From contig CAUJNA010001646.1 of NCBI GenBank assembly GCA_963377175.1, positions 219,286-283,285 on the forward strand: a stretch of DNA of 64,000 bases, read 5' to 3'. The DNA comes from Effrenium voratum (taxonomy: Eukaryota > Sar > Dinophyceae > Suessiales > Symbiodiniaceae). Below, piece after piece: positions 41,374-64,000 of the stretch. The notes below the pieces were generated by a model that was not told the origin of the DNA, made no database searches, and saw only the letters and a list, made by a program, of their open reading frames with translations. The translations under genes were made by a program, and so were the position numbers. Each line of letters opens with the position of its first letter. Position 1 is the stretch's first letter.

Positions 41374-41544
41374 CGGGGATGGGAGATGCGCCGGTGATGT
41401 GTGCCACTGGTTGGATGCTGATAGTGGGCTTAGTTTGGCATTTTAGGGGGGGAAGTTCCCTATCCTATTTCTCCCTTTTTGTGAGAAACCCATTGGGTGG
41501 TCCCTTCTTGGGCACAACTTCCATTTGCTGAACTGAATATGTTT

Positions 41545-41584
41545 TATTTCCCCTGTTGGTTTTAAAGGGAATCTATCGCTACTG
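41545..41584. repeat. Dispersed hairpin repeat, copy 2
   Basis: Matches 8764-8804 over about 40 bp (GTTGGTTTTAAAGGGAATC core), with small differences. Confidence 0.6.
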
Positions 41585-42156: not shown

Positions 42157-42557
42157 TGTGTTTTGTTCACGTGTTGTTTCTTCATATGGCAAAACGGCCG
42201 AATGGCCGTTTGGCTCAAGTTTTGCCCTCCCGTCAGGGGGGTCACGGATTCTCGTTGCGCCAGCCATAGTGCGGCTGACTGCTTCGCCGTCGGGAAAAGG
42301 CTCCTGGCGTCGCCGTGGTTAGGCACTGGGAGGTGGGCGGAGCATCTCTGCGTGATCGTCCTGGGCTTGGACACAAACTTCCCTTCTTCAACTTATTTCC
42401 CAACCTCCCCAAACTTGATCTTCATTAACTGTCACTCCCACAATCTGGTCACCGGCACCTTCTACATTGTGCTTTGGGACTGGGTTCTTTTGGTACTTCG
42501 TGAACCACGTGTACCTCTTTGATTCCCTGGGCTACTTCGTGTTCGCCCAAAACCGCA
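42157..42557 (+). repeat. Probable 5' LTR of the giant element
   Basis: Begins TGTG and ends CGCCCAAAACCGCA, with the primer-like site immediately after. It parallels the proven LTR of the small element in its end sequence, length (about 400 versus 360 bp) and the position of the spliced-leader-like segment. The second copy is outside the window, so this rests on analogy. Confidence 0.55.
42198..42219 (+). promoter_or_regulatory. Spliced-leader-like segment in the giant element's LTR
   Basis: CCG...TTTGGCTCAAG, 22 nt. The last 11 nt are exact to the dinoflagellate SL; the middle diverges. It sits about 60 nt from the LTR start, as in the small element. Confidence 0.5.
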
Positions 42558-42568
42558 GGTTATCAGCC
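42558..42568 (+). promoter_or_regulatory. Primer-binding-like site
   Basis: GGTTATCAGCC directly after the LTR end, identical to the small element. It has no TGG, so the primer would be an internal tRNA fragment rather than a tRNA 3' end. Confidence 0.6.
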
Positions 42569-42649
42569 GTACCAGCTAGAAGCTGGGGCTGGTGATCCGG
42601 TTGCGGGACGTGACCCGCTACCTGCTCCCATCGCCTACTTGTACGAGCA

Positions 42650-45600
42650 ATGGCGTCCCCCGGAGCTTCACATCGTGGGCCGGGCTTCGTGGATGACGAG
42701 GCCAACGCCCTTCGCGGCAACGCCGCGCCTGCTGCCCCCGGCTTAGACAGCCGGCTGTGGCCCATTCCCCCGATGGTGGGCGCAGAGCCCAATCCCGGGG
42801 TGATCACGGACGATTGGATCCTTTCTCAGGTCGTGTTTGATGAGGATGCGGAGGCCCCTATCCCGGCGGCAGTGCTTCAGATCGAGGACGGACCCCCTCT
42901 AGAAGAGGCTGAGGTTCCTCCAAATCAGGTGCCCTCGTCGATTTCGCCTACTGTTCCATTCGTGGCGCTCCAGATCGAGGACCGGTCTGTCCATCATGCT
43001 GCTCATCCGGAGCCGGCTCAATCATGGTCCCTTACATGGGATCAGTTTGACCAGCTCCTCGGCAGTGGATCGCAGGCTACACCGCCTGATTTCGGTCGGC
43101 TTGACTTTAACTCGGGTGCCTCCGTTTCGGTTGGAAATCTGGATTTTCAATCCCTTTTTGATGCTGATTGGAGGTCTCAGCCTTCCCGAATGGACGGACC
43201 TTTTGATGCCCTGCCTACGCATGAGCCTACACAGGGTTTTCCTCATGATGGAGAAGATGACCCCATTGAAGATTTCTCCCCCTCTCATGTTGCAGGTTCG
43301 GCCCAACCCGAGGTGAGCAAACGGGCGATTGAGGATTGGCCGCAGATAGCTGGCCTTCCTCCCGTCTCAGGTTCATCCGATATTGACATCATTCATGATC
43401 ACCCCAGTCCGGCGGATATGGACTTCATCCCTGATGCAGTATCATCTCACCTGTCAGGTACCCGCGACCGGACTGCGGACCGCTACAACGCTGGTCCAAA
43501 TCCATCGCTTTCCTCAGGTACCCGAGGTCGAGATGCGAGCCGCTACAGCGCGGGCTCAAATCCGCCAAATCGGACATCAGGTACTGGTCGATCGGATGCG
43601 GGACGCGAAACAGCAGGCCCAAATCCCTCCTCCTCTTCGTCAAGGAGCCATGCCGGCCTCTTCGCGGCGTTCAATCGGCGCCAGACTCGAAAAGAGTCCG
43701 CCCCCGACGTCATCGACCTCGAGGAGCAGTCCAGCCACCGTACCAGTGATGGATCCGAGCAGGATACACCTGGTATTGGCTCTACTCCCTTTGACCTCCT
43801 CGACATCCCCTTCCATCAGCCTCCCAGGAGAGGAAATGAAGATGATGAAACCATCCCTGGGATCCTTGATGTAATCGATGAGGCCGAGGTCACACCAGAG
43901 AGACGAACGACATCGCTCCCGCCGAGCCGCGTTGCCAAAGTTCTTTCCCCTAAGCCACTCAATGGTGACGTTGCTCAACGGCTTGATCTCACTCAACCTG
44001 ATCCAGATCAAGCTCAACTTCGCGGATCATCATCATTTGATAATGTGTCGGGACAAACCGGCACTGACTCACGAGCTACAAAGAGGAGCTCTGAGTCACC
44101 CGAGAGACGTGAAGCTGCTCTGCGATTGCGATCTAATCCCCCCGCTCATCACGACCCTATTGACGTTCCTATCCACTCTGCGGGGTCTGGGCTCAGCTCC
44201 AATGCCCCGATGTCTGAGAAGGAGACTGATGACGGGATTAACTCTACGCCCAGGAACCGAAGACCTGGACTTAGCACTATTGCCCCTGGATATGGAGGGC
44301 TTCCTTCAAATCAGCCGGTCAACGACTCCCTCGTCCCCGCATTCTTCCAAATCGGAACTCCGGGCTGCACTCCCGACAGGGAAGAGAATAGGCGCGGAGA
44401 TCATGACGCTGATAGTCGTCCTGCTCCGTCTGCTTCCACGAGTGGCGGTCATCCTGTTGCATCTGAGCTTCAACGACTGCTTCTCGCGATCCACAACGAG
44501 GTCAAGGGATGCAAGGCCGAAATCCAGGGATGCAGAACAGAGATTCGGTCATGTAGGGATGATATCAACGCTTGCGTCGGTGAGATCAAGAAGATCAATA
44601 ACCGTGTTGATGCCTTCGAGAAGAAGGTTGAATCATCTTTCTCTGCCGTTGCCGGAACTCTCTCAAAACACGAGGCCAAATTCCGTGATTTCCACGAGTG
44701 GGTCGCCCGAAGCGAGAAGGAGATGAATGAGCGTTTCAAGATGTATGATGAGAGGTATGACTCGATCGTCATATCCGCTGCTGAACTTCGCGAGCAAGCC
44801 GAATCACTTGAGAACGTCAAGGTCCAGCTCCTTAGATTCTCTGAGATCGGGGCCCTTGAGGCCGAGATTCGGAAAATCAAGGACGAAGTCGAGGCAAACT
44901 CTCGCAGTGTCATCGAAATCGAAGGAAACATCTCAAGGGAAAGAACCATCCGTGGGAACGTCGAGACGTATATACAGCATCTCGTTCCTGCGACCGACCT
45001 GAAGCAGTTCAGTGATAGGGTCTCCGGAGCCCTCAATGAGAACTCAAAGAAGCAGGAAGAGTTCAAGCTTCAATTGTCCCGTGTTGCTAAATGTGTCAAG
45101 GATCTTCATGACAAGGGTTTAGGCCCCAATCTGAGGGACATGCAAGAGCAGTTTATGAAGCTTGTGCTGAGGGTCAATGAGATCAACATGCAGATCGCCG
45201 AGTTGAGGGAACAACCTCCCGCTGCCTGCGGATCTTCTAGTGCTGGCGCTGCTTCGACCGCCGGAACGGGGTCATGGGAGAAATCTGGAGACACTGATCC
45301 CTTAACTCAGGGAAGGACTCCTAAAGGTTCTCCTCCTCGTGCTGTTCGCACCGTCAGCTCGGCGAGGCCTCCTCCACCTCCACCTCCTTCAGGGCCACCC
45401 CCACCATCACCATCAGCCCCCAATTTCGGCAGGGATCCCTCTAGAACGAGGGCCATTTCTCGGGCTGCCGGCGCTGCCCCTGACAACCGGGCCAGGTGTG
45501 CTCATGAGGAGCCCGGCCATCCACAACATCGGGAGCCTCGCTATCCGTGCCGGAGTTGCGGCAAGTCAGTCTGTGAAGACTGCTTTGACCATGATTGTAA

Positions 45601-47737: not shown

Positions 47738-50700
47738 GAGGGGCGGGCCGTTACCCACAGGCCTCGCCGGGAGTCTCCATCGCATGCCCAGCGACAAAAT
47801 GCGAACCTGATGATCCGACAGGTACCCTTTCTGACAGGGCACCCGGCCGCTTTCCTCCTGCTGATGCACAAGTGTGGTCTAGAACCGACCGCCGGGCTTG
47901 CATGTTTCAGGGACCCACTGGTGGGGGCCCCGAGTTACAGCACGTGGTGTGGAGGCGGACCGTTTCCATCTGTGATGGACGAGTTATCCAGGACCTTCCA
48001 ATCAATTCTCACACTTCGCGGAATACGATGTTCTGCCCTATCGGTTTTACCGGAGACGTAGAAACTACCTTTTGGTCATACACTGACCCTGTTAAGCGTG
48101 CCGCGTGGAATGCCTCCATGCGACCGAACGTCTATAATGACGACCGCAGCCCGACAGTTCAGATCAATGACTCCGCCATGATTGAGTATATCGTCGTTTC
48201 CGATAACAATCTTATGAAACAGATTTCTCATGTTTCCCAGAAATCCAGGAATCCATCATATACTCACTCCGGGGAGTTCAAGAACGCTTCAAAGATCACC
48301 ATTGAGCGGCAAAGTGAGAAGGCCATTCTCCGAGCACTCTCCATGCAGGAGCAGGTCGCCATTGATCAGGAGGGCGAATACCTCGAATCCAAACCGATTC
48401 GACGGCGCATGATGTATAGAGCATCGCGCATGTCCTCCACTCCATCCGCTCCAGGGCACGAACGATCAATCCGATGGCTTGCTGATACAGGCTGCCCCAT
48501 CGACCTTGTTGGACTGAACGAACTTAGTGCAGGTGAGCAGAGTCTGGTGAAGAAAACCGGACGTACCCATGCCCTGCAGACCGCCAACGGCACTGCATCG
48601 ACTCTCGGAAGCATTGCTGCTGACATGCAGGACATCGACGAGGTGATTGATGCCCACGTCATGCAGAACACGCCATCGCTCATCTCAATCGGCAAACGCT
48701 GTATGGAGCAAGGTTACACGTTCACCTGGCCCGCGGGTGAGCTTCCCGTCCTTCGAGGACCTAATGGCAAAGAAATTGTGCTCGACGTGCTGAACAATGT
48801 CCCGTACTTGCCTGCCTCACGTTGCAATTTCAGTTCTCCGGCGACCGATCAGTACCCTGACATCCCTGCTGTTCCTGCTCCTTCTGCTCTTTCCGGAGAT
48901 GTCATCAAAGAGGGGACAGAGGACATGGCTTCTGTTCCCGAAGGTCATCCTGGCTCACCTGACCTTGATCCTCCTGCCTCTGACCCTATTGAGGAAACCG
49001 TCGAACTTGAAGGCCACGGCCCTCTGCGTAGCGCCGAAGACTGGAGAGCCGACGCCTTGACCCTCCGCCACATGATGACTCATCTCCCCAAGAACCCTTT
49101 TTGCTCGCACTGCCAGCGTGCCAAGATGGAGAATGTTAGACTGTTCCGGAAAAGGGGCGCGGCTGGTCATGGAGCCGAAGACTTCGGCGACTTAGTCACC
49201 GCCGACACGATGGTTCTGCGAGGGCTACGTGACAGGGGCATCAACGGCGAGGCCGACGCCATCGTTTTCTATGATCTCGCTACTTCGTGGATCGATGTCA
49301 TGCCTGTCATGAGCCGCTCTGATGCTAACACCGTTGACGCTTTCAACCGCTTCGCAGGGCCTCAAAATGACATCAAGATGATGCACACTGATCAAGCTAA
49401 AGAACTTGTCAGTGCTTGCAAAGAACTGCGCTGGATACATGAATGGTCTACTCCGGGAATGCCAAAGACAAACGGCATCATTGAAAACAAAGTCAAATTA
49501 GTCCTTCATGGTGCACGTGTGCTTTTACGTCAAGCCGGGTTAGAAGCCCGATGGTGGCCCTACGCAACAAAATACTTTGCCGTTGCTAGAAACATCGAGA
49601 ATCGGGGAGGTGGAAGCGCGTGGTCTAAAAGACACGCCCCCCTTCCTTTCAACGGCAAGCTTCTTCCCTTCGGTTGCTTGGTTGATTTCTTCCCCGTCGC
49701 TCCCAAGCCGCGTCGAGTTGAAAAGGGGGGGATCAAAAACGCCCCCGAAGATCAAAATAAGCCTGCCGACGAGGACTATTGGAGCAAAGACGAAGAGAAC
49801 GAGTGTGTTATCCGTATACACCGGACACCCAGAAAGAAGCTCTTCGATCCAAGGGGCTCCAACTGCCCAATCGACGTTCAATTCCTCGCTGACGAAACTC
49901 TAACCATCATTAAATATCTCAACGGTGAAAATGACTCTATTCAGTCAACCACGTGGAGGAACCTGAGTGATCCGGGAGATGATCAATCGCAAGATTGGAT
50001 TGGCGAAACCTATTTTCAGGTCGACGTCCACGCTCTCGAGAAATGGGGCGAAACCGCAAGAGAAGACACATCCCTTTCTGACGATGACTATGAACCCATG
50101 TCGCCAGCAGAAATCGAGGAAGCTCTGCGTGACTGTGACTACGACCCCCTCGCTGACTTCGCTGAAGAAGAATCTAGTATCGCTCCCGCTGTTCCCGGCG
50201 AAGAACACGATCACTATAAGGCTCCCAAGTTCGCCCCTGTAGCCAAACCTGGTGTTTTCCTCGGTTATCGGTTCGAACCTGGAGGGAAATGGAAAGGCGA
50301 CTACTATGTTGCTGACCTCGAGCATTTTCAGGCTGGGGTTGTGCGACCCAGTATCCACCAAGTGAAACAGATCTACCACGATGCTGAAGAGGCTTTCGTG
50401 TTTCCTCTGCTAAAAGCATATGAGGCTCGTACTCGAGAGATTGCATCATACAAGCATGATCGCCTCTCAGACCCTGATCACCTCAGCGGAAAAACTTTGC
50501 CCCGTGAAGACGAATCCTTCAGCTTCGACGAGGGACGCTTTGACCATGGGGACGATGAGGTTGATCGCCAGAATCGGCGACAGAATGCTGACTCTGACAA
50601 TATTCTCGAGACTGACCTCATTGATCATCACGTCTCGGATGGATCTTCCCCTGACAAAAGGGATGACTACTGGGTGCGCTTTGAAGAAGAAAGGTCCTGG

Positions 50701-51654
50701 CATCGATACCATGTCAAAGCGAGAAAGGACTTCTTTGGAGACGACACCCGTCCCCTGCCTTCAGGGGGGCCGATCCAGACTGATCTCGACGACGTCAGGA
50801 TCACTCATTGCAACTTCCTCGACTCTAGGGACGAGGTCTATCGCGACTCCCGTGATGTGTATGCCAGCGGCCACCGGGTTAGAACACACAAGTTCTGGAC
50901 CGGGGTTACCATCCTCTTCGACAAGGGCTGCGCGCCCAAAAGGAGGCGTCCCTCTTCCAAGAAGCCGCTCTGCGAAGATATGTTACCGGGAGGTAAGGAG
51001 GACATTGACTATCCTCAGTCCTCCAAACGCAAAGAACGTCCCTACACCGGGACGGGGAAGCCCAACTCCATTTCGTCCGATGATTGGCGAGCCATGTCGC
51101 TCACCGCGCGAAGGATCTATGTCAGCACTGAGAGGGAGCTTGAGGTTGAGAAGTCTCGCTCCAAACCTGGCGGCGATCATCCTGGCGCGCCGGCCACCTC
51201 CAGTAAGTCACTCCTAATTGAATTTGCATGCGAAGCCGACTCCGCGCTCTCCGCCACGATGTTCGAATCTGGTGGAGATGCCATTCGCGTGCACAAGGAC
51301 TCTTTTGATATCCTCAAGAGCAAGGACGTTAGGAGGCTGATTGAGATCGTTAGGAAGAATCCTAAATGCGATCTTTGGTCTTCTATTCCCTGTGGACCTT
51401 GGAGTACTTGGCAATATGTCAACCTTTCTCAGTACGGACCCGAGTTCGCCGCTGAACTTAACGACGCTCGAAGACAGTCCCAAATCATGTTCGCGGCCTT
51501 CATTCGAGTTTCTCGTGAAGTGCGGAAGGGTGGTGGGCGAATTGCCTATGAATGGCCACGTCATTGCCTTGGATGGTCTCAACCCTTCATGAAAAGTTTC
51601 TTGACGATCCTGAGATTCTCACTGTCAATATTGACGGATGCGACTTCGGAATGA
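47725..51654 (+). CDS. Pol part 1: protease, integrase and start of a methyltransferase-like domain
   Basis: Expressed by -1 frameshifting from gag. Residue numbers count from 47872. The aspartic protease motif is WLADTGCPIDLVG (Asp 205). The integrase zinc finger is H-x3-H...C-x2-C near 400-418 (RHMMTH, FCSHCQ). The integrase DDE triad is Asp 444 (TADT), Asp 507 (HTDQAKE) and Glu 538 (GIIENKV). Integrase C-terminal blocks include FGCLVDFFP and PGVFLGYRFEPGGKW. Residues from about 1110 form a Rossmann-like domain with SSIPCGPWSTWQ (Cys 1174) and AYEWPRHCLGW (Glu 1227). The reading frame then passes to part 2 with a -1 change inside this domain, where no canonical slippery site is present. That change is therefore likely a mutation or sequencing error. 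Catalytic residues for protease and integrase are intact. Confidence 0.8.
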   Translation, partial: RGFLRGAGRYPQASPGVSIACPATKCEPDDPTGTLSDRAPGRFPPADAQVWSRTDRRACMFQGPTGGGPELQHVVWRRTVSICDGRVIQDLPINSHTSRNTMFCPIGFTGDVETTFWSYTDPVKRAAWNASMRPNVYNDDRSPTVQINDSAMIEYIVVSDNNLMKQISHVSQKSRNPSYTHSGEFKNASKITIERQSEKAILRALSMQEQVAIDQEGEYLESKPIRRRMMYRASRMSSTPSAPGHERSIRWLADTGCPIDLVGLNELSAGEQSLVKKTGRTHALQTANGTASTLGSIAADMQDIDEVIDAHVMQNTPSLISIGKRCMEQGYTFTWPAGELPVLRGPNGKEIVLDVLNNVPYLPASRCNFSSPATDQYPDIPAVPAPSALSGDVIKEGTEDMASVPEGHPGSPDLDPPASDPIEETVELEGHGPLRSAEDWRADALTLRHMMTHLPKNPFCSHCQRAKMENVRLFRKRGAAGHGAEDFGDLVTADTMVLRGLRDRGINGEADAIVFYDLATSWIDVMPVMSRSDANTVDAFNRFAGPQNDIKMMHTDQAKELVSACKELRWIHEWSTPGMPKTNGIIENKVKLVLHGARVLLRQAGLEARWWPYATKYFAVARNIENRGGGSAWSKRHAPLPFNGKLLPFGCLVDFFPVAPKPRRVEKGGIKNAPEDQNKPADEDYWSKDEENECVIRIHRTPRKKLFDPRGSNCPIDVQFLADETLTIIKYLNGENDSIQSTTWRNLSDPGDDQSQDWIGETYFQVDVHALEKWGETAREDTSLSDDDYEPMSPAEIEEALRDCDYDPLADFAEEESSIAPAVPGEEHDHYKAPKFAPVAKPGVFLGYRFEPGGKWKGDYYVADLEHFQAGVVRPSIHQVKQIYHDAEEAFVFPLLKAYEARTREIASYKHDRLSDPDHLSGKTLPREDESFSFDEGRFDHGDDEVDRQNRRQNADSDNILETDLIDHHVSDGSSPDKRDDYWVRFEEERSWHRYHVKARKDFFGDDTRPLPSGGPIQTDLDDVRITHCNFLDSRDEVYRDSRDVYASGHRVRTHKFWTGVTILFDKGCAPKRRRPSSKKPLCEDMLPGGKEDIDYPQSSKRKERPYTGTGKPNSISSDDWRAMSLTARRIYVSTERELEVEKSRSKPGGDHPGAPATSSKSLLIEFACEADSALSATMFESGGDAIRVHKDSFDILKSKDVRRLIEIVRKNPKCDLWSSIPCGPWSTWQYVNLSQYGPEFAAELNDARRQSQIMFAAFIRVSREVRKGGGRIAYEWPRHCLGWSQPFMKSFLTILRFSLSILTDATSE
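47728..47768 (+). promoter_or_regulatory. Programmed -1 frameshift signal between gag and pol
   Basis: In the gag frame the heptamer G GGT TTC (47728-47734) has the canonical X XXY YYZ form and is followed at once by the gag TGA. After a 7-nt spacer, GGCGGGCC (47742-47749) can pair with GGCCTCGCC (47760-47768) with one bulge and a 10-nt loop. The -1 frame is open from 47725 into pol. All three elements of a classical frameshift site are present. Confidence 0.8.
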
Positions 51655-51890
51655 AGGACAAGAACGGGACGCCCATCCGGAAGCAGTGGAGAATCGCCAC
51701 GAATTCTCCCGACCTCGCCGCCGCACTCGGGGGCAGAACGTGTCATCATGAAAAGGGGTTCGCGCACGCCAGGATTGAGGGGTCCCTCACTCCACTCACT
51801 GCCCTCTACCCGAAGCAGATGTGCCAGATGATCATCAAATCCTGGTACAAAGGGAGGACTGAGAGATCTACGATTCCTGTCGCGGTCGCC
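51200..51890 (+). other. Methyltransferase-like domain split by a frame change
   Basis: The order LLIEFACEADSALS (possible cofactor strand), PKCDLWSSIPCGPWS (Pro-Cys), GGRIAYEWPRH (Glu) and later PIRKQWRIAT parallels motifs I, IV (PC), VI (E-N-V) and VIII of C5-cytosine methyltransferases. Motif I lacks the usual F-x-G-x-G. Dinoflagellate retrotransposons are known to have captured such enzymes, but this one could be a distant or inactive relative. Confidence 0.4.
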
Positions 51891-54800
51891 GAGCCCAACA
51901 ACCGCGCTGCATGGAAAAGAGACCCCCATGCGCTCTACATCCATCCTCTTCGGGAAGGGGTCGCTGTCCCTAACCGCGGGACTCCTGAAAGTGTTGGTCT
52001 GGATTTTCAATCGGCCCATGATCACACAGTTCCCGCAGGCGACAAAGCCACCATCGGGACTGGCTTGGCCATCACTATTCCCGAGGGAGTCTACGGAAGA
52101 ATAGCCCCCCGCTCTGGCCTTGCTGCCAAGCACATGATTGACATCGGTGCCGGCGTCATTGACCCCGACTACACCGGAGAGGTCAAGGTTGTAATCTTTA
52201 ACCATTCGAACTATGACTTTGTCATCAAGAAAGGAGACAAAATCGCGCAACTCATTCTTGAGCGCGTCTCTATTCTTGAGCCCGTCATATGCTTGCAGAA
52301 GCCGCGTGCCACCGAAAGAGGGGGGCAAGGGTTCGGTAGCACCGACAAAGGTGCCCCCGCTGCATCTGCTACTTTCCCATCACATATGTGGTCCTCCACC
52401 GGAAGCACCGAGTGGTTTGCCATGCCTCGTGGGGCTGATGGGTCCGGTCACAGTCCATTCCTCGGGCTTCCTCCGTTCAGCGCCTGTGTCGCTCGCCCTG
52501 TGCCTCGAAAGGAGGCAAAGCTCGACCCCAACAAGGCATTCGCCGCCCTAGAAAAGGAGTGGAAGAAGCTTAGAGATCTTGGCTGTTGGGACCAATCCAG
52601 GGTGCGTGAGTGGCGTGACGTCGCTGCTGAGGCAAAGCGAGAAGGAACCAAAGTCCATGTCGGCCGCATCTTCGACATATGCGTCGAGAAGAATCACGAA
52701 CTTGCAGAGGACGACCCGAACAGGAAGTTCAAGGGCCGTGTTGTGTTCGAGGGGTGTCACGTTAGGGACGAATCCAATGCCTGGGCCCTGTTCTCCGAAA
52801 TCACCTCATGTCCTGCCACTATGGCGGCAGGAAAGGTTGCTGATGCATACGGACTTTTGCCAGGAAACTCGCTTGAAGTTAGCGACGGGGAATCCGCGTA
52901 TACGCAGGCGTTGCTCGGCGGAACCAAGACCTGGATACGTCTTCCCCGTGACCAATGGCCAAAGGAATGGGAGGGCATGCAAGACCCTGTATGCCCCCTT
53001 GTTCTCGCACTCTATGGACATCCCGACGCTGGAGGTTTCTGGGAGCAGCACTGCGAGACCCAACTTAAAAAGGTTGGATTTGTACCCATCCCTGACTGGC
53101 CCAGTGTTTTTCGTCACCCGGCACTTGAGACCTTTCTCGTTGTCTATGTTGACGATTTCAAGCAAAGTGGCCCATCGGCTAACCTCGCCGAAGGATGGAG
53201 ACTCATAGGCTCCGTTATCAATATGGAGGAGCCCCGTCCTCTCAAGAGATATCTCGGATGCGAACACGAATTCAGATCAGCCACCGTTGATGGGCCTTTC
53301 GACCCGAGGACTGCTTGGACGGTTGGACATCCTCCCTCAAAGCCTATACCGGAGATGCGTTTTGGGCCTGACCGAAGGCCTGCTGCCGACGCATGTCGCG
53401 GCAAAGCTAAGATCAACCTTATCAAATATAACGAATCTTGCTTCATGCAAGCATGTGTTGAGCGCTACCTCGAGCTTTGCCAGTCGAAGTTTCCCAAGGC
53501 CCTTCAGACTGTAGAGACCCCGTTCCTCGACGAGAGTAAGCCTGAATTTGACGAGAACCCGGTAAACCCGGAGTTCGACAGGCTTGTTGACCAAAAAGGA
53601 GACATCGAAGTCGTCTCTGCCAAGCCTGGCGTCCTAGGCGACGCAGCTGCACAAGTCTTGATGAAAATCTTATATGGTGCTCGAATGGGCCGCTATGATT
53701 TAATCCGACCGGTGCAAGCGCTGGCCAGCAGAATCACCAAGTGGAACCAATTGTGCGACAAGAAGCTTCACAGGCTCGTGTCGTACATTAACTCCACCAT
53801 TGAATTGCACCTCTATGGATGGGTTGGCGATCGATCTGACATGATCGAAGTCGTCACCTACTGCGATGCTGATCTCGCCGGTGATCGAACCGACGCAAAA
53901 AGCACATCCGGGGTCCTCGTATGTCTCGTTGGCCCTCGCACCTACATGCCCATCACCGCCGTGAGCAAGAAGCAAACTTCCGTATCGAAGTCTACTCCCG
54001 AGGCCGAAATTGTCGCCCTTGATCACGGCATTTCCAAAGAGGCCATGATGCTCGCCGCTCTCTGGCACTTTGCCATCGGTCGCGGCTCTTCAGACTCGAT
54101 CGTATGCAAGTGCAAGATAAAATATGACGCTTCGATCCCACAACCAATCAGCGTCCTTGAGGACAATGAAGCCGCATGCAGAATAATCGTCACCGGAAAC
54201 AACCCAAATATGCGATACATGTCGCGTACCCAACGGGTTGATATCGCGTGGCTCAATGAGCGATACAACGACAAGATATTCCGTTTCGTTGCATGCCCTT
54301 CGGACTATCAGGGAGCCGACATCCTCACAAAGGCGTGCGTCGACAAGACCGTATGGAGCAAAAATCTCCACACCCTTGATATGTTCAAGCAGGGGTTTCT
54401 GCAATCATATCTCTCCCATCCCACCCAACCCGTGCATATTCCCCCTGCCGCTCCTGCTCTTCCACCAATCAGGGGGGTTCGCATTGAATCCGATCAGGAC
54501 TCAAAATTCAACTCCTTCATCAACGACGCCAACGTCTCAGATTGCAAGATTTCAATCACCGAGGTTAGGGCGTCTGAGAATGACCACCTGACCGTAGTCA
54601 TTGACTCATCTGTGTTACCACTCCTGCCCCCTCAGCGCGGGCACAGAGTCGTAAAAATCGATCTCGATGATGGAGGCACCGGAGGGATCTCTACGTATCC
54701 CGGATTGAAAGGAAAAAGAGATAACTTTGCTGTGTTCAATATTTTTCCTTCATGCCCGGATTCCTGCAAAAGGGATTGGTCCAAGATCAGGAGGTTTCGA

Positions 54801-55139
54801 CAAAAGTGCGACACGCTTACTGCCTCTACTCTTGCCTTTGCTCTAAATGCCATACATCACAAATTTGACATTGTTATCGGATTTGGTGGCGACCTACCCG
54901 GACTCTGCGTTCAGAAAATCCGCCAATTTATTGATGACCATGACCTATACAGATCTAATCTCTGCAGTTGCCAGGTTGGAGCTTGCGGTCACGCCACCGT
55001 CATTACTGTTGCCGTGAACAAACGGACTAATGATCGGTTACGCTGTGTACCCTGCTCTATATCGCTTCGAAACGGGAAGAACAACTTCTCTTTTCACGAT
55101 ATTGCCTGGGAAAGGATTTTCGATGAAATCTTCGGTTGA
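51552..55139 (+). CDS. Pol part 2: rest of methyltransferase-like domain, dUTPase, reverse transcriptase, RNase H
   Basis: Residues count from 51552. About 15-110: end of the methyltransferase-like domain (NIDGCDFGMKD, PIRKQWRIATNSP). About 145-262: dUTPase with all five motifs (VGLDFQS; APRSGLA; GVIDPDYTGEVKV; GDKIAQLIL; RGGQGFGSTDKG), so the trimeric active site looks complete. About 320-590: copia-type reverse transcriptase with VSDGESAYTQALL and YVDD (Tyr 532, Asp 534-535). About 765-930: RNase H with Asp, Glu, Asp, Asp in YCDADLAGD, STPEAEI, LEDNEAA and QGADILTK. From about 955 to 1195: an extension of unknown function with scattered Cys (CSCQVGACGHA). It ends in TGA. The first ATG is not the natural start; this is a continuation of part 1. 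Confidence 0.85.
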   Translation: MATSLPWMVSTLHEKFLDDPEILTVNIDGCDFGMKDKNGTPIRKQWRIATNSPDLAAALGGRTCHHEKGFAHARIEGSLTPLTALYPKQMCQMIIKSWYKGRTERSTIPVAVAEPNNRAAWKRDPHALYIHPLREGVAVPNRGTPESVGLDFQSAHDHTVPAGDKATIGTGLAITIPEGVYGRIAPRSGLAAKHMIDIGAGVIDPDYTGEVKVVIFNHSNYDFVIKKGDKIAQLILERVSILEPVICLQKPRATERGGQGFGSTDKGAPAASATFPSHMWSSTGSTEWFAMPRGADGSGHSPFLGLPPFSACVARPVPRKEAKLDPNKAFAALEKEWKKLRDLGCWDQSRVREWRDVAAEAKREGTKVHVGRIFDICVEKNHELAEDDPNRKFKGRVVFEGCHVRDESNAWALFSEITSCPATMAAGKVADAYGLLPGNSLEVSDGESAYTQALLGGTKTWIRLPRDQWPKEWEGMQDPVCPLVLALYGHPDAGGFWEQHCETQLKKVGFVPIPDWPSVFRHPALETFLVVYVDDFKQSGPSANLAEGWRLIGSVINMEEPRPLKRYLGCEHEFRSATVDGPFDPRTAWTVGHPPSKPIPEMRFGPDRRPAADACRGKAKINLIKYNESCFMQACVERYLELCQSKFPKALQTVETPFLDESKPEFDENPVNPEFDRLVDQKGDIEVVSAKPGVLGDAAAQVLMKILYGARMGRYDLIRPVQALASRITKWNQLCDKKLHRLVSYINSTIELHLYGWVGDRSDMIEVVTYCDADLAGDRTDAKSTSGVLVCLVGPRTYMPITAVSKKQTSVSKSTPEAEIVALDHGISKEAMMLAALWHFAIGRGSSDSIVCKCKIKYDASIPQPISVLEDNEAACRIIVTGNNPNMRYMSRTQRVDIAWLNERYNDKIFRFVACPSDYQGADILTKACVDKTVWSKNLHTLDMFKQGFLQSYLSHPTQPVHIPPAAPALPPIRGVRIESDQDSKFNSFINDANVSDCKISITEVRASENDHLTVVIDSSVLPLLPPQRGHRVVKIDLDDGGTGGISTYPGLKGKRDNFAVFNIFPSCPDSCKRDWSKIRRFRQKCDTLTASTLAFALNAIHHKFDIVIGFGGDLPGLCVQKIRQFIDDHDLYRSNLCSCQVGACGHATVITVAVNKRTNDRLRCVPCSISLRNGKNNFSFHDIAWERIFDEIFG
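51990..52345 (+). other. dUTPase domain inside Pol
   Basis: dUTP pyrophosphatase converts dUTP to dUMP and pyrophosphate, limiting uracil in DNA. Motifs 1-5 are in order and well conserved, including the catalytic Asp in motif 3 (GVIDPDY) and the P-loop-like motif 5 (GFGST). Position between integrase/methyltransferase-like and RT is unusual for a copia element. Confidence 0.9.
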
Positions 55140-55678
55140 ATGTTTTCGGTCTCTGTTGAACCTGTGCTCTCTTGTTGCTCGCCATACAGTATGGGATGTT
55201 CATAAGCGCTTACATGCTGCTTTTTGGCTCTCTCAGCTGAGCACGACTTCCTCGGAAGTCTTCATCGGCAAGCGATGCACATTTCCGACCATTCCAAGAC
55301 AATATGGGACTCCCCTACACTCGGGGCTTTGACCCTTGTTTATTCGTGATGGTATTGTCGATCTTGAGACTATGAACAATTCATCTTTAATTCCTATTGA
55401 GCTCCTCTATCTCACTATTTGTGTGAGCCTGAGTGTTGCACTTAGCCGCCCCGCCTCGCGCTTTGGGCCGCTGCTGCAACATTCCCTGGCCCGGGTGACG
55501 TGTCCTAGACGGACTTTCCACCCCGGCCTCGGCAGCCGATCGGCTGCTGGTGATCTTCACCACCTTCACGCACCGCTGCTGTGCGGCCACTGGCGATCTC
55601 CATCGCCCTCCTGCACCGCCGCTGGCGGCTGCCTTGGACCACTTCTCACTTCCGCTTCTCCTACGCGGGCTCCGTGAT
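55140..55678 (+). other. Gap between pol and the next giant coding region
   Basis: About 540 bp with no LTR-like match to 42157-42557 and no supported gene. Pyrimidine-rich stretches followed by AG (for example TTTTTGGCTCTCTCAG near 55220) could be acceptors for spliced-leader trans-splicing of a downstream mRNA; this is speculation. Confidence 0.35.
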
Positions 55679-56245
55679 ATGGCTTCCGCGGAAAGCGGAT
55701 CGATCACCAGGGCTGGGGCTGAGAAAAGCCTCCCCACACCTCCCAGCGCATCATCGCTGCGGTTCCCCTACCCTGTCACCGGCCGCGTGAAAGCCGTGGC
55801 CAACATCATGCAGAACAGCTTCAACAGCTGGGTTTCCAAGCTCAACGGTCGCGCGGCTTTAAAGGCTGCCCGTTTGAGCGACGTGATCACCGGCGAGCAG
55901 GTGGAGACTATGATCAATGGTCTCGTCAAATGCGAGGGATATGATTCCTTTCCTGCAGAAGTTAGGACCAAAATCCTAAATTACCGAAGAGGAAGGGCGG
56001 CCAACATAATCGCCCTGCTCAAGGATTCTGGTTTCATCGCCACTGAGCACAATGCCCTGACCACCGCGGCAATCCTGTGCGATGCGATTCCCATCCGAGG
56101 CTCTGCCACCCACTACCTCCCCCACGCCCACATCGCGCTCTCGGGCTTGATGAGGCGAAGGATGTCGACCCGGCAGTACATCCCTGCTGTCGACCATCCG
56201 GAGGAGGATGGTCTTCGTCCATCACGAACGCCGACGGGGAGTTGA
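55679..56245 (+). CDS. Giant downstream polyprotein, segment 1 (N-terminus)
   Basis: The ATG at 55679 opens about 175 residues of protein-like sequence (helical, e.g. KAVANIMQNSFNSWVSKLNG, then GYDSFPAEVRTKILNYRRGR). The frame then appears to continue in the -1 frame near 56200-56230; the original frame stops at 56245. No family recognised. It lies in the position of an env or extra 3' gene of some copia elements, but no signal peptide or membrane segment is seen. Confidence 0.55.
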   Translation: MASAESGSITRAGAEKSLPTPPSASSLRFPYPVTGRVKAVANIMQNSFNSWVSKLNGRAALKAARLSDVITGEQVETMINGLVKCEGYDSFPAEVRTKILNYRRGRAANIIALLKDSGFIATEHNALTTAAILCDAIPIRGSATHYLPHAHIALSGLMRRRMSTRQYIPAVDHPEEDGLRPSRTPTGS

Positions 56246-58791
56246 AGAAGAACTGGAGGACTGAGTACTTGGCGGTCAAGCAGAACCAGTACCGGAGCTA
56301 CGTCGGCTTCACAACCGACTGCTATGACATGGGTGATCCGCGCCGTTCCCAAAACACGGGAGGCATCAGCAGCTTCACTCAGTACGAGCCCTCCATAGTG
56401 AGAAAGTGGCTACAAATGCGCCCTCTTGCTATGTTCGTTCCTCCAGAGATCGTTGTTGATGGCATCTCCCTCATTAAGGATAGAACCTTGGAGGAAATCA
56501 TCGACATGTGTCAGGATAGGACCACTAGCAGATCGATCGATCATCTGCCATCCATGGAGGCCTACGGCGGCTTTGGTGCATTTGCGGAGCACATGACCTC
56601 TGAGCTGAAGGTCGCGACCGTGCTTGACCAGTTCTTCCTGTGGGACAAGGTTGAGAGGCTCGCCACTCCCGGATTGACCAACGTGGCCCACGACTGCGGC
56701 ATCACGGCGGGCGAAGGATATTGGATTGTACCCTCTCTCTCGTCCGTCATTGATGCCGATTCCCCTAACTGGAACCAATGGCAGCAGGGGAGCATTGAGA
56801 ACAAGCTCTGGGCACATGGACTCAGCCAGTTCTCCCTTTGGGCCTCCCTCGCCCATGAAGAGGTGGTGAGTTCAGAGTCCGAGGACAAAATCGGGATTTG
56901 GACGTCGCTGGTATACAGCCAAGCGCTCGGGTACACCCCGTGGGCGCACTACGGCCAAGGAGTCTGGGCTCACCTTTCTTTCATGCTGCCTGTGGACGCG
57001 GCCAGCGGTGACAACCCCCGCGGAGATAAGACGCGGCGTCTCATGCTGGCTCGGGCACCCATCTTTGCTCTCGCTATCAAGTTCTCCCACGACCTGGAAA
57101 AGATCACGGGTGGTGAGGGGTTCTCCACATGTTACGCAAATGGAGACGTCGAGTTGCAACGGTTCAACCCTTACATTGAGGTTAACCCCTGCTCTCCATC
57201 GGTCTCCTGGAGGAAACGTGCCTTCTTCCAGCCTAACGCTATCGGGGAGATCGGCGCGACCAAGCGCGAGCTGGAGCGATTGGCTGCTCCTAGCACCCCC
57301 ACGAAGACTGGTGGATTCAGCCCGGAGTTCGCCAGGCATCGCCTCATTAGCAACACGTATGCTATGAAGGTGCAAGAGGCTGGATCATCGATCCCGTTTG
57401 CGCACGAAAATGAGTACCCGAAGTATCCGGGTTACATCATGGAGGAGCATCTGGCGCCGTCTACTATGTTTCTGGACATCGACAAGATGATCGGGAAGTA
57501 CAAACAAGAGTGGATCGCGAACCCCGAGAGTGAGATGCTCCCTAGCCTGAGCAGGCCTAAGACCTCTCATCTGACTACATACGACCAGAACGCCCTCGAA
57601 AAAGAGTGGATAGGTTGGGGAAACCAAATGTTCAGGAACGTGATCCTGACCGTGTTCCCGGAGTTTGCCCTCACATGCATTGACTCTGATGTTCCGACTA
57701 TACCGTCGGTGTTGAAGGGCCTCCTGCCTATGAGCACTACCGGTGTCACCGGTATCCTCGCCGCGAAAGCAGCGGGTTGGGGGCCTCCCACATACTTGGA
57801 GGAGCCAACGATTAAGGCCAATGCCCAGGTGCTTGTCTTCTACGACCTCTGCTTTGCGTCGCGCGGGAAGACCAAGAAGGGCTCTTATATCACGGCGGAT
57901 GAGTTTGGTGCGCAACTGGACACTCTCCGGTCCACTGACAGCGGACCGCGAAAGGGATCCACCCCGAAGATCCATTTTCACTGCCCGTACGGGGAGAGTG
58001 GTTACCACATCCCCATCGCCACCATGGTCGAAGAGGCCACACGGCTCACTCATGACCGCGAAAAAGCGGTTGGAAGGGGGGCCATGGAGTATGACACCTG
58101 CATTTTTGCGACCCGTCTCCATGATCTGGCCGATTGGGATGAGAAGAAGCAGGTATCGGTCATCAAGAGCAACGCGCAAACCCTCATCCACACCACCCTG
58201 GAAAGGCTTGAGTCCGTGAGGAGGGCTGGATCGAATGTGGTGATCCTCATTTCGGTTGCGTCATGGCTTCAGCCCACTCGCAATACCAACATGCTCGGCG
58301 TCATCACGACATTCATCAGGGCAGCGATGAAGAGGAACCTGATCGTGGTTCCTGCGGATTTCGCTTTTTGGGGCGACTACTGTGTCGGCAGTTCCGGCGC
58401 CCCCGCGAACAAGTACAGAACTGTGGTGGCGCTCCCGGCGCTCGCCAGCGCGGCGGTGGATATCTCGTGGACGCTACACCGCGTCATGAGTGCGACCAAT
58501 GCTGCGAAAACGTTGGGCATGCTGTACAAGAAGACCATGTATCCACCCGACGAGGGCGCGAAGGTGAAAGCCGAAAAGATTCTCCAGACCAAGGTATGGG
58601 ATGATTCGCTAACTTACTCCACCGCCCCGCCAGCGAAGGCCACCGGGGCAGATAGCTCTGGCCTATCGCATGACGTGGAGATGACTGATGCGGCACCTAC
58701 GGTGACGCCCCCCGCACAGGCGCGGCGGCTCCCCCTGTGGCGAAGACTCCTGCCCGCCAGGCCGAGCCCAAAGGTCCTGCGCCGAAGGTGA
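56200..58791 (+). CDS. Giant downstream polyprotein, segment 2
   Basis: About 840 uninterrupted residues with strong coding character (SSSITNADGELKKN, RKWLQMRPLAMFVPPEI, WNQWQQGSIENKLWAHGLSQ). Part of the C-terminal half (57822-58400: QVLVFYDLCFAS, EYDTCIFATRLHDL, SNVVILISVASWLQP) has alternating strand-helix order like an SGNH-type hydrolase, but the catalytic Ser and the Asp-x-x-His are not evident. Function unknown. The end runs into a Pro/Ala-rich linker where the frame changes at a C6 run (58706-58711). Confidence 0.6.
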   Translation, partial: GGGWSSSITNADGELKKNWRTEYLAVKQNQYRSYVGFTTDCYDMGDPRRSQNTGGISSFTQYEPSIVRKWLQMRPLAMFVPPEIVVDGISLIKDRTLEEIIDMCQDRTTSRSIDHLPSMEAYGGFGAFAEHMTSELKVATVLDQFFLWDKVERLATPGLTNVAHDCGITAGEGYWIVPSLSSVIDADSPNWNQWQQGSIENKLWAHGLSQFSLWASLAHEEVVSSESEDKIGIWTSLVYSQALGYTPWAHYGQGVWAHLSFMLPVDAASGDNPRGDKTRRLMLARAPIFALAIKFSHDLEKITGGEGFSTCYANGDVELQRFNPYIEVNPCSPSVSWRKRAFFQPNAIGEIGATKRELERLAAPSTPTKTGGFSPEFARHRLISNTYAMKVQEAGSSIPFAHENEYPKYPGYIMEEHLAPSTMFLDIDKMIGKYKQEWIANPESEMLPSLSRPKTSHLTTYDQNALEKEWIGWGNQMFRNVILTVFPEFALTCIDSDVPTIPSVLKGLLPMSTTGVTGILAAKAAGWGPPTYLEEPTIKANAQVLVFYDLCFASRGKTKKGSYITADEFGAQLDTLRSTDSGPRKGSTPKIHFHCPYGESGYHIPIATMVEEATRLTHDREKAVGRGAMEYDTCIFATRLHDLADWDEKKQVSVIKSNAQTLIHTTLERLESVRRAGSNVVILISVASWLQPTRNTNMLGVITTFIRAAMKRNLIVVPADFAFWGDYCVGSSGAPANKYRTVVALPALASAAVDISWTLHRVMSATNAAKTLGMLYKKTMYPPDEGAKVKAEKILQTKVWDDSLTYSTAPPAKATGADSSGLSHDVEMTDAAPTVTPPAQARRLPLWRRLLPARPSPKVLRRR

Positions 58792-59758
58792 TGTCGCCAC
58801 CGAAACGCCCCATCTCGCCATCGAAGGCTTCGCCCGCCAAGGCGAAGGGGCCCATCGACATTAGAAGTGTCCCCAAGGCCCCTGTCCCATCCGTGCCCGC
58901 AAAGGGCGGCACGCCAGCCAAGTCGCCGGATCCCGGCTCTACGGCCACCAAGGGTGCACCTCCCGCTCGGGCGCCAAACATCCGCACTTCCGGGGGAAGT
59001 TCGCCGGTTCCCGAGCCTGCTGACCCGCCAAAGGCCCCCCGATGGGGGGGGCCGTTGCCCAAGTCTGTGCTGACTCCGCCCGGAAGGACGAGAGCAACTT
59101 CCCGCGCCTCGCATCACCTGAGGCATCACGCAAGGCTGCAGCGGCGGCCAAAAAGAAGGCTGAGGAGCTGAAGAAGCCAACGGGAACTGAAAGGAAGGAT
59201 GTTCCCACGCTCCCGACAGTCGAAGAGAAGGATGATGATGACATGGATGTGGAGAACGTCGAAGACCTCGCGAAGACCCCCGCTCAGACGAATGATGACG
59301 TACCAGGCGTCGGTCCCCACCCTGATGCATCAATGGAAGTAGGGGGGAGCACTGGATCGGGAGGGCCTCCGACAAAGGAGGATCTCTCGGAGTTCGATGA
59401 GGTGGACCCCGATGCCCGCACCTCCGCCGGAGACGCGGGGATCTCCGTCGAGGGGTATACCATTACCCCCGACGGCGAGTACTATGACCCCGACTCGCAG
59501 GAGACCTTCCAGACACTTGAGGCATGGAAGGCTCAGCGGAGATCGTCCCGACACAGGGTCGTCCGAGCTAGCGCCACGGAGTCAAAGGATCCGGTGCACG
59601 GCGGCCTTGAGGAGGATGAGCGGAATCCCAACTACTATGGAGACGACACGGAGCCGAAGAGAGGATCGATTCCCCTCGACGAGGCGTTCACCCGGCCCGA
59701 CAGGTTCGTACTTCACCACATCGAAAAATTTCGAGCCGATTGTGGCCAGCTACGCTAA
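58706..59758 (+). CDS. Giant downstream polyprotein, low-complexity linker in two frames
   Basis: From about 58710 the coding frame is Pro/Ala/Lys-rich (KGPAPKVMSPPKRPISPSKA). At a G8 run (59044-59051) it moves to the -1 frame and becomes Lys/Glu-rich then acidic (KAAAAAKKKAEELKK; VEEKDDDDMDVENVEDL), then ordinary (YTITPDGEYYDPDSQETF). Near 59723-59730 (AAAAATTT) the frame shifts again, in the + direction. The linker joins segment 2 to segment 3. Three indel-like steps, all at or next to short homopolymers, point to sequencing error or recent decay. Confidence 0.5.
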
Positions 59759-62700
59759 CAAGGCGAGGAACTCGGACCAGGTGAGTAGGGAGCAGGGTGA
59801 TCAATCGAGGACATTGAACGCTGCCATCCCCAATGATCGTCATGGGGTGCGGGAAATGGCCAAACGCGCCACGCTGGTTGACTGGGCCCACGCATATGCA
59901 GATAAATGCACTGTGCATGGCCCCAAGCAGTTCCAGTATGTTCACTTCGGGAAGGAGGCCACGGATAGAACCGAGGCTGACGAGTGGACAAAGGTCATGG
60001 AAACGATCGTTCCCCCTGAGTACCCACCGGAGATCCGTGATCAGATCGACTCCAAGTTCGTGACCCGAAAGGGCGAGTCCGGCGACCACCACACCGGCAT
60101 CTTTGGGAAAGCCAAGCAACCGCTTGGGAACTCCAACTCGTACCCAAACAGGGCACGGTGCGATGCAATGGTGCACGACGGGACCCGACTCGGAATGGTC
60201 GATTCCAGGAACGGCGAGGTCATTCCCATGGATGACGTCTTTTGGACGGCGGAGTACATGAACGCATATGATCTCAACTCCCAGCTCTCCGCGGTCCGTG
60301 CCGGCCTCGATATGGCTTTGGCGACCGCCTGGAGGATGGGGCACGTTCACCCACACGTGGCCGGTGCTGTGGCCGGGTTGCAGAAGATCAGGACATTCTA
60401 TGACTGCCTCCACGCCGCCCACCGCAAAACCCGGCTTGGGTCTTTGCCATTCCACCAGATCGTTGGTGAGCTCGACCGCGTCGACGATCGTGGCAACAAG
60501 CTGGAGCCGAACATCCCTGACACATGGCGAACCACCGCGCTCAGAGGGGAGTACCCGGACTGCCTGGCACAATCAGTCGCACAGGTCTTCCGGTCCATGT
60601 GCGGTCCATTGGCCATGTCTGGATCGCGTGAGGATCGGGCAGTCATCATTCGCAGAGATGAGTCCGCCTTCACCCGTGGTGACAAAATCATGGGCATCCC
60701 CTGGCCGGCTTATCGGCGTCCTACGGCGCGCGAGATCAAGGAGGCCAAGGAGAAGGCGGAGAAAGAGGGTCACAACGCCAGTGAGGACGTTGACATGAAT
60801 GAGCCCCGGGACAAACCGGTGGTGGCTGGAGGAGAGGCAGCGGGAACGACCGCCACGGGGGCCTCTGAAAACAAGAAGGATGACCCTGTTCCACCTGTCA
60901 CTCAAGCCCCTGACGCCCCTGCCGAGCCCGCCCATCCTCCTGCGGATGCGCTCCCTAGCCAGGTCGAGGCAAGGAGCACTTTGCTGGGCGTCCATGACAC
61001 TGCGGGGCCATTCGCCGCTCCCAGGGATCTGCATACCGGTCAGTTCATATACGTCGACTGCACCGAGGAGGAGAGAGCCATGCTGCCCACGACCATCGGA
61101 TCGCAGTTCGAGGCGGAGCGTGCTCTGGCCGAGCTGAGGACCGTGAGTCGCGTCGTCGGTGACCCGCGTGATTCCGAGGAGTACACGTATTGGGAGACAT
61201 CCTCCCGTGACACTCTCGCCTACGCCTTTTACAGCGTGCCGGATCAGTACAGGAATGTCCCGGCAGTGAAATCCGCCTCACGCATTTTCGACCAGATTCC
61301 CGACGGCCAGCTCGTGCGACCGGACAAGCCGGAGCCCGCGGTTCTCCGCCTCAGCGCGGTGAAGGGCACTGATGACACCCGGAGGAACCTCGAGAGGCTG
61401 AAGGAGGAGTCCATCAAGAAAAATGTGGTCATCCTCGGCGCCAGGAGAGGCGAAGATATCGCCCCCAGGATCGGAAACACGATCACTACTCTGTGCGCCA
61501 AGATAGGGGACATTGCCCGATTCCTGGAAATGGGAGTGAGATCCAGAGCGGGACCTATCCTCCCGACCAAGAGCGACCCCGACCTGATGATCCAGGCCAT
61601 TGTCCCCGCACCGGAGGAGCTCCTGGACTACTTCGCCGACGAGATCCGTCAGAAGGTGAAGGGAAGGGCGAGCGCCTCTTCGCACTACTACCGGAGAGCA
61701 TGCGCGGAAATACGCGACGCGCTCCGTGGAACAGCGGTGCAGCCTGGAAACGCGGGTGCAGTCAAGGACCCAGAATTGGAGACCTCGTCTGCCAGCGGGC
61801 AAGGGAACGTCACTTCGGTGATACAACTGAAGAAGTTCCTGAGCCACTACTTCGGGACAAGTGTCGAGTCCGAAGAAGCCTTTTCGTCGTATCTCCTGTC
61901 CTCCTTCCTCGAAGACGGAGTGGGGATGTTCGAAATCATCATCACCGTCATCCGTGACAAGGAGCGTCGGTTGCTGCCTGGATCCGCCCGCATAGCGGCG
62001 GTAAGGTCGCTTGAGATCGGATCCGACACGGATTACCGGGCTTTTCGTGAGCGATACCAATATACGCTCTACGAGAGCCCGGTCTGCCTTCCTATCACCT
62101 CCAAGGTGGTTCCCAAAACACTCTACAAGGTGGTGCCTCTTCGGATGTATCGGCTCTACGTAGAACGTGGGGCGATCATTCGGGGTGGGCGAGCTCTGAT
62201 CGAGCTCCTCCCCTCTCGGCCGGATGAATATCAATCCCTCCGCGATCACGGAGAGTGCCCCAACGACACAGTTGACCGCATCACCGACAGCAATGTGACG
62301 GAGCTGCACACCTCGGGTCGACGCCAAAGGAGCGATCCCCGATATGTGGTCATGGCTATCGATGCGCGCTTCTTCTCCATGGAAAATGGGGGCATGCACA
62401 TTACTCGCCAGGGTACCTTTGCATCGCGCGAGAACATCGCGATCGGGTACTGGAGGTGTGTCTACTTCAAGGAGGACTGCTCCATCATCTACCTGAGGCC
62501 TTGGTGCTATCCGCCCAACTTCCTCAACTCCGTGAGTGATAACCCGAGGAAGTGCCGGGACGAGCTGGAGAAGTATCACCAGATGACCAAGGCGGAACAT
62601 GTCCGCGAGGTGGTGTCCGTTCCATGTCATAGGTGCATGACGGCTCACCCGATCGGCGCTCACCTGTGCACCGCCTGCTACCTTCCCATCTTCTATGAGG

Positions 62701-64000
62701 GCGTCCTGCCCACCGGAGACACGGACGGCGGCCCTCGCACGATAGCGAGCACCAACGGGGTGGTTCCTCCCTGGCTGGCGAAATACGAGGGCTTCGTCCC
62801 CGCTCTGTGGAACAACGCAGACGCCAACGCCATCGGAATGGCCCTCTACTCGCAGAGTCCCGCCGTCGATGCCCGGTCCTTGTTGATGTCTGGGATGCGG
62901 CCTCCTAAGTACCTCGACAAAGAGGACGTGGATGGCATTTTCCGAAAACTTCACGACTCGCTCCGAGACGAGGTTGTTGACGGAAAGTACCGTGACACGG
63001 TCGACCACAACGTGGAAGAATGGGTAGCAAAGGCGATCTTGGTAAGGGGTCTTGCCTTCAACGGGAGCTCCGTCTCCGACTTCTTCGAGGAGTATGAGGG
63101 GTATGCGGCTGAGTGGGGCAGACGCCTAACCACCGCGAACTTCAACGCCAACCGGTGCGGCTTTTACACGTCATACTACATGGTTGAGGCCCATATCATT
63201 GGGCTGAGGGCAGGACACCTTTCCCCGATACTTCCCAACGATTTGTCCGGGGAGGGATTCAAATTCCAGGTGGCGCTGCTCGCACAGCACTGCGGGATAA
63301 TGCAGGCCATGCGGAGAAAGGCCGGGTTCGATCCTGCCGCGCGCCTCAAACAGGCTATGGACACGATACGAGAAGGCATCAAGAAGGGGTACGTCTACAC
63401 CCTCAACGACCTCAGCAGTATGGACGATCTGATCTACCGGACGTCCACCGTTGCCTACGACACCTGCTTGGCCGACCGTCCTCAAACCCAGGATGATGTC
63501 AAGCAGGAGCTGTCCGACCCTACGCCAAGGAAGTACCGCTTCCGACCCCGCGATCGCTATCGGCCCGGGATTCGCCTTACACCAGGCCCCGGCGTGAAGG
63601 ACGAAGACGAGCCCGACTTTGCTGGATCTGCGGGGGATGAGCTGGGATCGGATGGGTCCTCGCGCAAAGAGGACGAGAAGTCCGACGACCTTGACGAGCC
63701 CATGGGCGATGACGAGGAGGAGATCCCTCCCCCTCCGCCGCCGCCCCCGGCTCCTCCTGCGCCGCCTGTCCCGGTAGAACCGGAGACTCCCGTGGTGTTG
63801 CATGCGGGCGTCGATTCTGGCGATGCTGTGCCAACTCCTCCTCCTCCTCCTCCCGCTCCCATTGCGGCAGGCGTTACGACGGCTGAGGATCCTTTTGAGG
63901 ACGAGGACTTGGCCATCAACACTCGCGTCCCTGACACCGAGTCCGAGCTGGAGGGTGGGTCTGACCAGCCCAAGGCCAGGAGGACATCTCGTGGTCGGGT
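59725..64000 (+). CDS. Giant downstream polyprotein, segment 3 (runs off the window)
   Basis: Open for more than 1,420 codons to the last base. Early part: SYANKARNSDQVSREQG, GIFGKAKQPLGNSNSYPN. A Pro/Ala/acidic linker follows near 60790-60970. A helical region ends around 61660. A KptA/Tpt1-like fold occupies 61819-62455, then a CHRC...CTAC zinc ribbon (62624-62680), then a helical domain (GLAFNGSSVSDFFEEYEGY). The C-terminal tail is rich in acidic residues and proline runs (from 63596). Minus-strand frames over this region are shadows. The product is unknown; structural protein, cofactor of the retroelement, or an independent gene are all possible. Confidence 0.65.
61819..62455 (+). other. 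KptA/Tpt1-like (RNA 2'-phosphotransferase) domain, probably inactive
   Basis: The order of blocks matches KptA: LKKFLSHYF (family: SKFLSxxLRH), VIRDKERRL...ARIAAVRSLEIG (family: RIRAVQGHS), PKTLYKVV (family: P..LYHGT), GGRALIELLP (family: HVHLS), VVMAIDARFF, then SMENGGMHITRQG (family: ENGVWLT). The His and Arg residues expected in LRH, QGHS, LYHGT and HVHLS are all replaced, so transfer of the 2'-phosphate to NAD+ is unlikely. It may keep an RNA- or nucleotide-binding role. The match is by eye only. Confidence 0.5.
62624..62680 (+). other. Zinc-ribbon-like motif
   Basis: VPCHRC, 13 residues, then CTACY: two CxxC knuckles, directly after the KptA-like domain. Likely a metal-binding module. 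Confidence 0.5.

Follow-up and report, generated by a model that had tools for sequence, protein, structure and literature searches.

A candidate giant copia retrotransposon of Effrenium voratum with a dUTPase and a predicted methyltransferase-like fold in Pol

Results

Organization of the locus

We analyzed a 64,000-nucleotide stretch of the genome of the dinoflagellate Effrenium voratum (assembly GCA_963377175.1, contig CAUJNA010001646.1, positions 219,286 to 283,285 of the forward strand; hereafter the window), in which positions 42157 to 64000 hold a candidate Ty1/copia-type long terminal repeat (LTR) retrotransposon. Gag, two Pol open reading frames (ORFs), a spacer and a giant third ORF share the + orientation in the window annotation (Table 1). 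The domains and their order were read directly from Pfam profile matches and motif positions, and they agree with the set and the + strand order proposed in an earlier sequence-only reading. The copia class proposed in the same reading is also borne out by the order protease (PR), integrase (IN), reverse transcriptase (RT) and RNase H (RH) in Pol, with an RT of the copia type.

Table 1. Features of the candidate element, in window coordinates
Feature	Position	Strand	Basis and remarks
Putative 5' LTR, TG...CA ends	42157..42557	+	Proposed in the sequence-only reading; no second copy in 54000-64000
Gag ORF, 1695 aa	42650..47737	+	N-terminal part long, low in complexity or coiled; Cys-rich clusters, a region resembling the copia capsid, a pair of CCCH fingers
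Two CCCH zinc fingers in Gag	47429-47485 and 47543-47599	+	PF00642 E 5e-7; motif positions
Pol part 1 (ORF2)	47872-51654, frame open 47725-51651	+	Protease, integrase, long linker, first part of methyltransferase-like domain
Predicted C5-cytosine-methyltransferase-fold domain	51199..51848, approximate ends	+	A frame change divides it over ORF2 and ORF3
Pol part 2 (ORF3)	51552..55139	+	Rest of methyltransferase-like domain, dUTPase, RT, RNase H, C-terminal tail
dUTPase, all five trimeric-dUTPase motifs	51963..52343	+	PF00692 E 7.2e-38; solved dUTPases E down to 2.9e-38; alignment
Copia reverse transcriptase, YVDD at 53145	52476..53270	+	RVT_2 PF07727 E 3e-4; 115 relatives
RNase H	53850..54400	+	Motifs; profile matches 93/115 relatives
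Post-RNase H tail	54420..55139	+	Common to P0002-P0005, P0008, P0012; position where sister elements hold the methyltransferase-like domain
Untranslated spacer, Pol to giant ORF	55140..55678	+	Putative 5' LTR not repeated here; 16-bp perfect palindrome 55532-55547
Giant third ORF, about 2,770 codons (8,322 nt) in the window, continues beyond	55679..64000	+	P0116, P0117, P0118

In ORF2, the protease motif DTGC lies at 48484, the integrase zinc motif at 49069 and the integrase catalytic motifs at 49189-49471, where the match to the rve profile is weak (E 0.003). An element of the DNMT-bearing DIRS type was considered and ruled out, as these are DDE-type integrase motifs rather than a tyrosine recombinase.

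A protein search with the RT-RNase H region found at least 115 relatives (numbered with the prefix P); this is a lower bound because only the 7,999 candidates with the most shared words were scored. The named relatives are Symbiodinium species, except P0074, which comes from a bacterial metagenome-assembled genome (MAG) and is probably contaminant DNA. Copia RT was also seen on two contigs (L001 and L002) classed as MAGs of Chitinophagia and Kiritimatiellae, probably through protist contamination. Profiles built in this analysis for the single domains matched the 115 relatives as follows: the capsid-like part of Gag (46532-47300) 5, PR 34, IN 49, the methyltransferase (MTase)-like domain 42, dUTPase 11, RT 111 and RNase H 93. 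The MTase-like profile was built from 19 of its 42 matching relatives, and those 19 match by construction. Because the seven profiles matched 5 to 111 of the relatives and none of the 115 reversed sequences, chance is not an issue for these domains.

Gag and Pol ORF2 overlap by 13 nt in different frames. The sequence-only reading would have failed if the two had proved to come from different elements. Three of the 115 relatives (P0096, P0101 and P0103) carry capsid, PR, IN and RT in a single ORF, which identifies the predicted Gag and Pol as parts of the same element.

A dUTPase between integrase and reverse transcriptase

The dUTPase that had been proposed for the element is well founded: both the family profile and the five motifs of the trimeric dUTPases, seen directly in the window copy, place it in that family. 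Among the 11 relatives with a dUTPase, inspection by eye found the five motifs intact in P0001, P0002, P0065, P0082 (with one change in the fifth motif) and P0083, and decayed in the other six (P0007, P0015, P0069, P0072, P0113 and P0115). The six decayed domains are still kept before RT or RNase H, as if the fold had a second role. We found no report of a dUTPase in a copia element in the open-licence literature, as judged mostly from titles and the first lines of abstracts. dUTPases are known from gypsy-type and retroviral elements, according to the portions consulted of PMC6431247 and PMC5408684.

A predicted C5-methyltransferase fold hidden in Pol

The methyltransferase-like domain suggested earlier is real. 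It is split by a frame change in the window copy and readable in one frame in P0001 and P0015. With a structure model, the earlier assignment sharpens to a predicted C5-cytosine-methyltransferase fold. A Pro-Cys after model strand 58-61 and a Glu on strand 115-120 are invariant in all 19 members of the profile alignment; on those strands, C5 enzymes are expected to carry the nucleophile and the base-contacting Glu, respectively. The solved structures listed in the comparison with the model include Glu119 mutants of M.HhaI. Identity to solved C5 methyltransferases is 9-12% over the aligned residues, and 224 residues were modelled versus at least 267 in the listed solved chains. The MTase matches obtained with Foldseek by itself were weak (best E 0.0097), which speaks against the assignment. 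No member (0/19) matches PF00145 at E 1 or better, so that the domain is filed as a fold-alike and membership of the DNMT family is not assigned. A report of this hidden domain was not found in the open-licence literature, judged mostly from listings. The post-RNase H tail of the window copy showed no significant similarity to the MTase-like domain (hhalign probability 1.2%).

Conservation of the fold need not mean methylation. The domain may instead be a DNA- or RNA-binding module of Pol that keeps the modelled C5-methyltransferase fold without methylating, a tentative alternative that we consider doubtful. It is consistent with the lack of a sequence match to any known methyltransferase, with a glycine-rich S-adenosylmethionine loop that is not obvious in A3, and with invariant residues C148, C182 and H190 that suggest a metal site. 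The Pro-Cys and Glu, invariant in 19/19 members at the strands expected of C5 enzymes, argue for a methyltransferase instead.

The giant third ORF and the extent of the element

The right-hand coding region of more than 2,700 residues noticed in the sequence-only reading is real. It is read in five pieces with a shifting frame (55679-56134, 56155-58718, 58722-59087, 59024-59722, and 59724 to past 63998). Two protein searches, each scoring about 7,990 candidates with the most shared words, found P0116, P0117 and P0118 as its relatives among the matches listed. P0116 (2088 aa; 173 members in its 90% cluster) is 97% identical to the window ORF, and P0118 (1171 aa) is 48% identical to P0116. Because the start Met of P0118 aligns to 55679, the giant ORF is a separate ORF and not an extension of Pol. 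Nothing significant was found for it in Pfam or PHROGs, the best E of piece 59724-63998 against PDB sequences was 0.83 (not significant), and the predicted structure of 56155-58698 gave no interpretable fold. No transmembrane segment was found in four of its pieces (peak 19-residue hydropathy 1.50 versus a threshold of 1.6; 58722-59087 was not scanned apart), and a retrovirus-like Env as the third ORF was ruled out on this ground.

Does the giant ORF belong to the same element as Gag and Pol? We favor that it does, with reasonable though incomplete confidence. The contig of P0118 has the same size, 231,851 bp, as the contigs of P0004, P0015 and P0062, of which P0015 is the nearest diverged relative across the MTase-dUTPase stretch; the only other contig size repeated among the 115 Pol relatives is 2,508 (P0075 and P0114). 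This suggests linkage of Pol and the giant ORF in a diverged relative, the identity of the contigs being judged from size alone. No purine tract of 12 or more was found in 55101-55700, and the 3' LTR copy at 55140-55680 that would have separated the two regions is missing from the spacer. Since the contig of a diverged relative matches those of Pol relatives in size, no LTR copy or long purine tract lies between, and the strand is the same, inclusion of the giant ORF is favored.

Several observations weigh against a single element. The G+C content at third codon positions (GC3) is 0.536, 0.562 and 0.582 in Gag and the two Pol ORFs versus 0.691, 0.704 and 0.718 in three giant-ORF pieces, and in codon usage the two long pieces resemble each other more than they resemble Gag or Pol. 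Among the 7,990 top candidates there was no giant-ORF relative for the P0002 sub-family (196 members), although this search could miss one. A single TGGTAT hexamer, a sequence with which some primer sites start, lies in the spacer at 55350, an occurrence near chance. The window showed neither an LTR pair nor a target duplication nor the right end of the element: comparison of 39000-43500 with 54000-64000 revealed no repeat above chance, the LTR proposed at 42157-42557 is unconfirmed, and the right end of the element lies beyond the window. Of the earlier proposal that the element exceeds 13 kb up to the end of Pol and would reach 21.8 kb with the right-hand region, the inclusion of that region is favored by the apparent P0118 linkage, the spacer without an LTR copy or long purine tract and the common strand, with the GC3 step, the unseen 3' LTR and target duplication and the P0002 sub-family on the other side.

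These observations would fit two adjacent or nested elements: a copia element of about 13 kb that was truncated at the 3' side and, to its right, a second mobile element in which the giant ORF comes first. The codon-usage step falls exactly at the Pol/giant-ORF border (GC3 rises from about 0.56 in 42650-55136 to about 0.71 in 55679-63998). Furthermore, three copia Pol relatives share the 231,851-bp contig size, and therefore co-residence need not mean one element. On the other hand, a diverged relative whose giant ORF is as little as 48% identical seems to have the same neighborhood, and 540 bp would have to hold both the broken end of the first element and the whole start of the second, in a spacer where neither a purine tract of 12 or more nor a copy of the first element's start was found. 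We regard two elements as rather unlikely. Still far less probable is a host or viral gene captured at this locus only, outside any mobile element; the lack of a known domain and the different codon usage would agree with it, but the 173 members of the 90% cluster argue the other way, and so does a diverged relative in which the ORF appears to be linked to the Pol family.

Other features of the window

A direct repeat pair (32573-32867 and 35337-35653; about 300 bp, 84% identical, 2.77 kb apart) encloses long inverted repeats (33778-34550) and looks like a small separate mobile element. Positions 21180-23056 hold long pyrimidine-rich tandem arrays, with CTACTACTA units followed by 32-nt units, and a strong strand skew. 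In the whole window, ARAGORN found no tRNA gene and Rfam gave no match at gathering scores.

Discussion

Taken together, the results point, with fair probability, to one autonomous-type Ty1/copia LTR retrotransposon of more than 21.8 kb with the order (LTR?)-Gag-PR-IN-MTase-dUTPase-RT-RH-spacer-giant ORF. Cluster sizes suggest that it is present in multiple copies. The element is unusual for its otherwise ordinary class, with a dUTPase and a disguised MTase fold fused to Pol and probably a giant extra protein, and the window copy is damaged or mis-assembled, as both the MTase-like domain and the giant ORF are interrupted by frame changes. A fuller proposal, on which we are evenly balanced, is a copia element of more than 22 kb with a hidden, unnamed C5-cytosine methyltransferase lineage in Pol, a dUTPase that looks active and, as third product, a giant soluble protein, the lineage having moved between at least two Pol positions across protist copia elements. 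Under this proposal, the lineage was overlooked in copia elements because no sequence profile detects the MTase-like domain.

The activities of all the domains and the role of methylation we infer as follows. Gag, with its capsid part and CCCH fingers, would package the element RNA, PR would cut the polyprotein, RT-RNase H would synthesize the cDNA, and IN would insert it. The dUTPase, tethered beside RT, would keep dUTP out of the very long cDNA. The C5-methyltransferase-fold domain would methylate cytosines, or bind DNA, on the cDNA or the target chromatin, and methylation would allow new copies to look like a methylated host genome or to be accepted within it. The giant ORF product would be a soluble accessory or structural protein and not an envelope.

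If this holds, an MTase fold that recurs in 42 of the 115 copia relatives would widen retroelement methylation to copia elements on a large scale, and whether copia elements mark their own copies would become testable with one purified domain. A dUTPase adjoining RT, and an element of more than 21 kb, would also bear on the size limits of reverse-transcribed elements.

Comparison with known systems

The element shares with Ty1/copia (Pseudoviridae) the PR-IN-RT-RH order, an RVT_2-type RT and an upstream Gag. It differs in that an MTase-like domain and a dUTPase lie between IN and RT, in the CCCH fingers of Gag and probably in the giant extra ORF. Up to the end of Pol it measures about 13 kb, if the LTR start is right; Ectocarpus LTR elements span 3.9-14.5 kb in the excerpt consulted of PMC12477816.

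Dinoflagellate retroelements with cytosine methyltransferases have been described in Symbiodinium, namely SymbioLINE-Dnmt, a long interspersed element (LINE), and SymbioDIRS-Dnmt3, a DIRS element; the sections consulted of that paper (PMC5890265) rank Copia first in abundance among the retrotransposons of Symbiodinium genomes and describe it as free of any DNMT domain. Those LINE and DIRS elements carry DNMTs detectable with PF00145, whereas here a Pfam-hidden fold lies inside a copia Pol. A 2025 paper, seen in part, places DNMT3 in LTR Copia and DIRS elements (PMC12344493). Three of the copia polyproteins found here (P0091, P0094 and P0095) give a clear match to the C5-cytosine DNA methylase profile PF00145 (E 1e-49 to 1e-51). 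The matching domain is not the hidden one and lies close to the N-terminus, ahead of PR; if the host is Symbiodinium, it would conflict with the printed statement, in the sections consulted, that Symbiodinium Copia lacks a DNMT. From DNMT3 and M.HhaI, the MTase-like domain differs in its 9-12% identity, the lack of a Pfam match and the shorter model.

The Burro elements of planarians are likewise giant LTR elements with a dUTPase before RT, but they are of the gypsy type, whereas the present element has the copia order, IN before RT, and an MTase-like domain in addition (PMC6431247, from the portion consulted). Bdelloid LTR retrotransposons also carry a dUTPase before RT, and many of their families have an extra ORF after Pol; as far as the consulted portion of PMC5408684 describes them, these elements are retrovirus-like, with an ORF3 that is env, GDSL or DEDDy, unlike the ORF of more than 2,700 codons, with no known domain found, that follows Pol in the E. 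voratum window.
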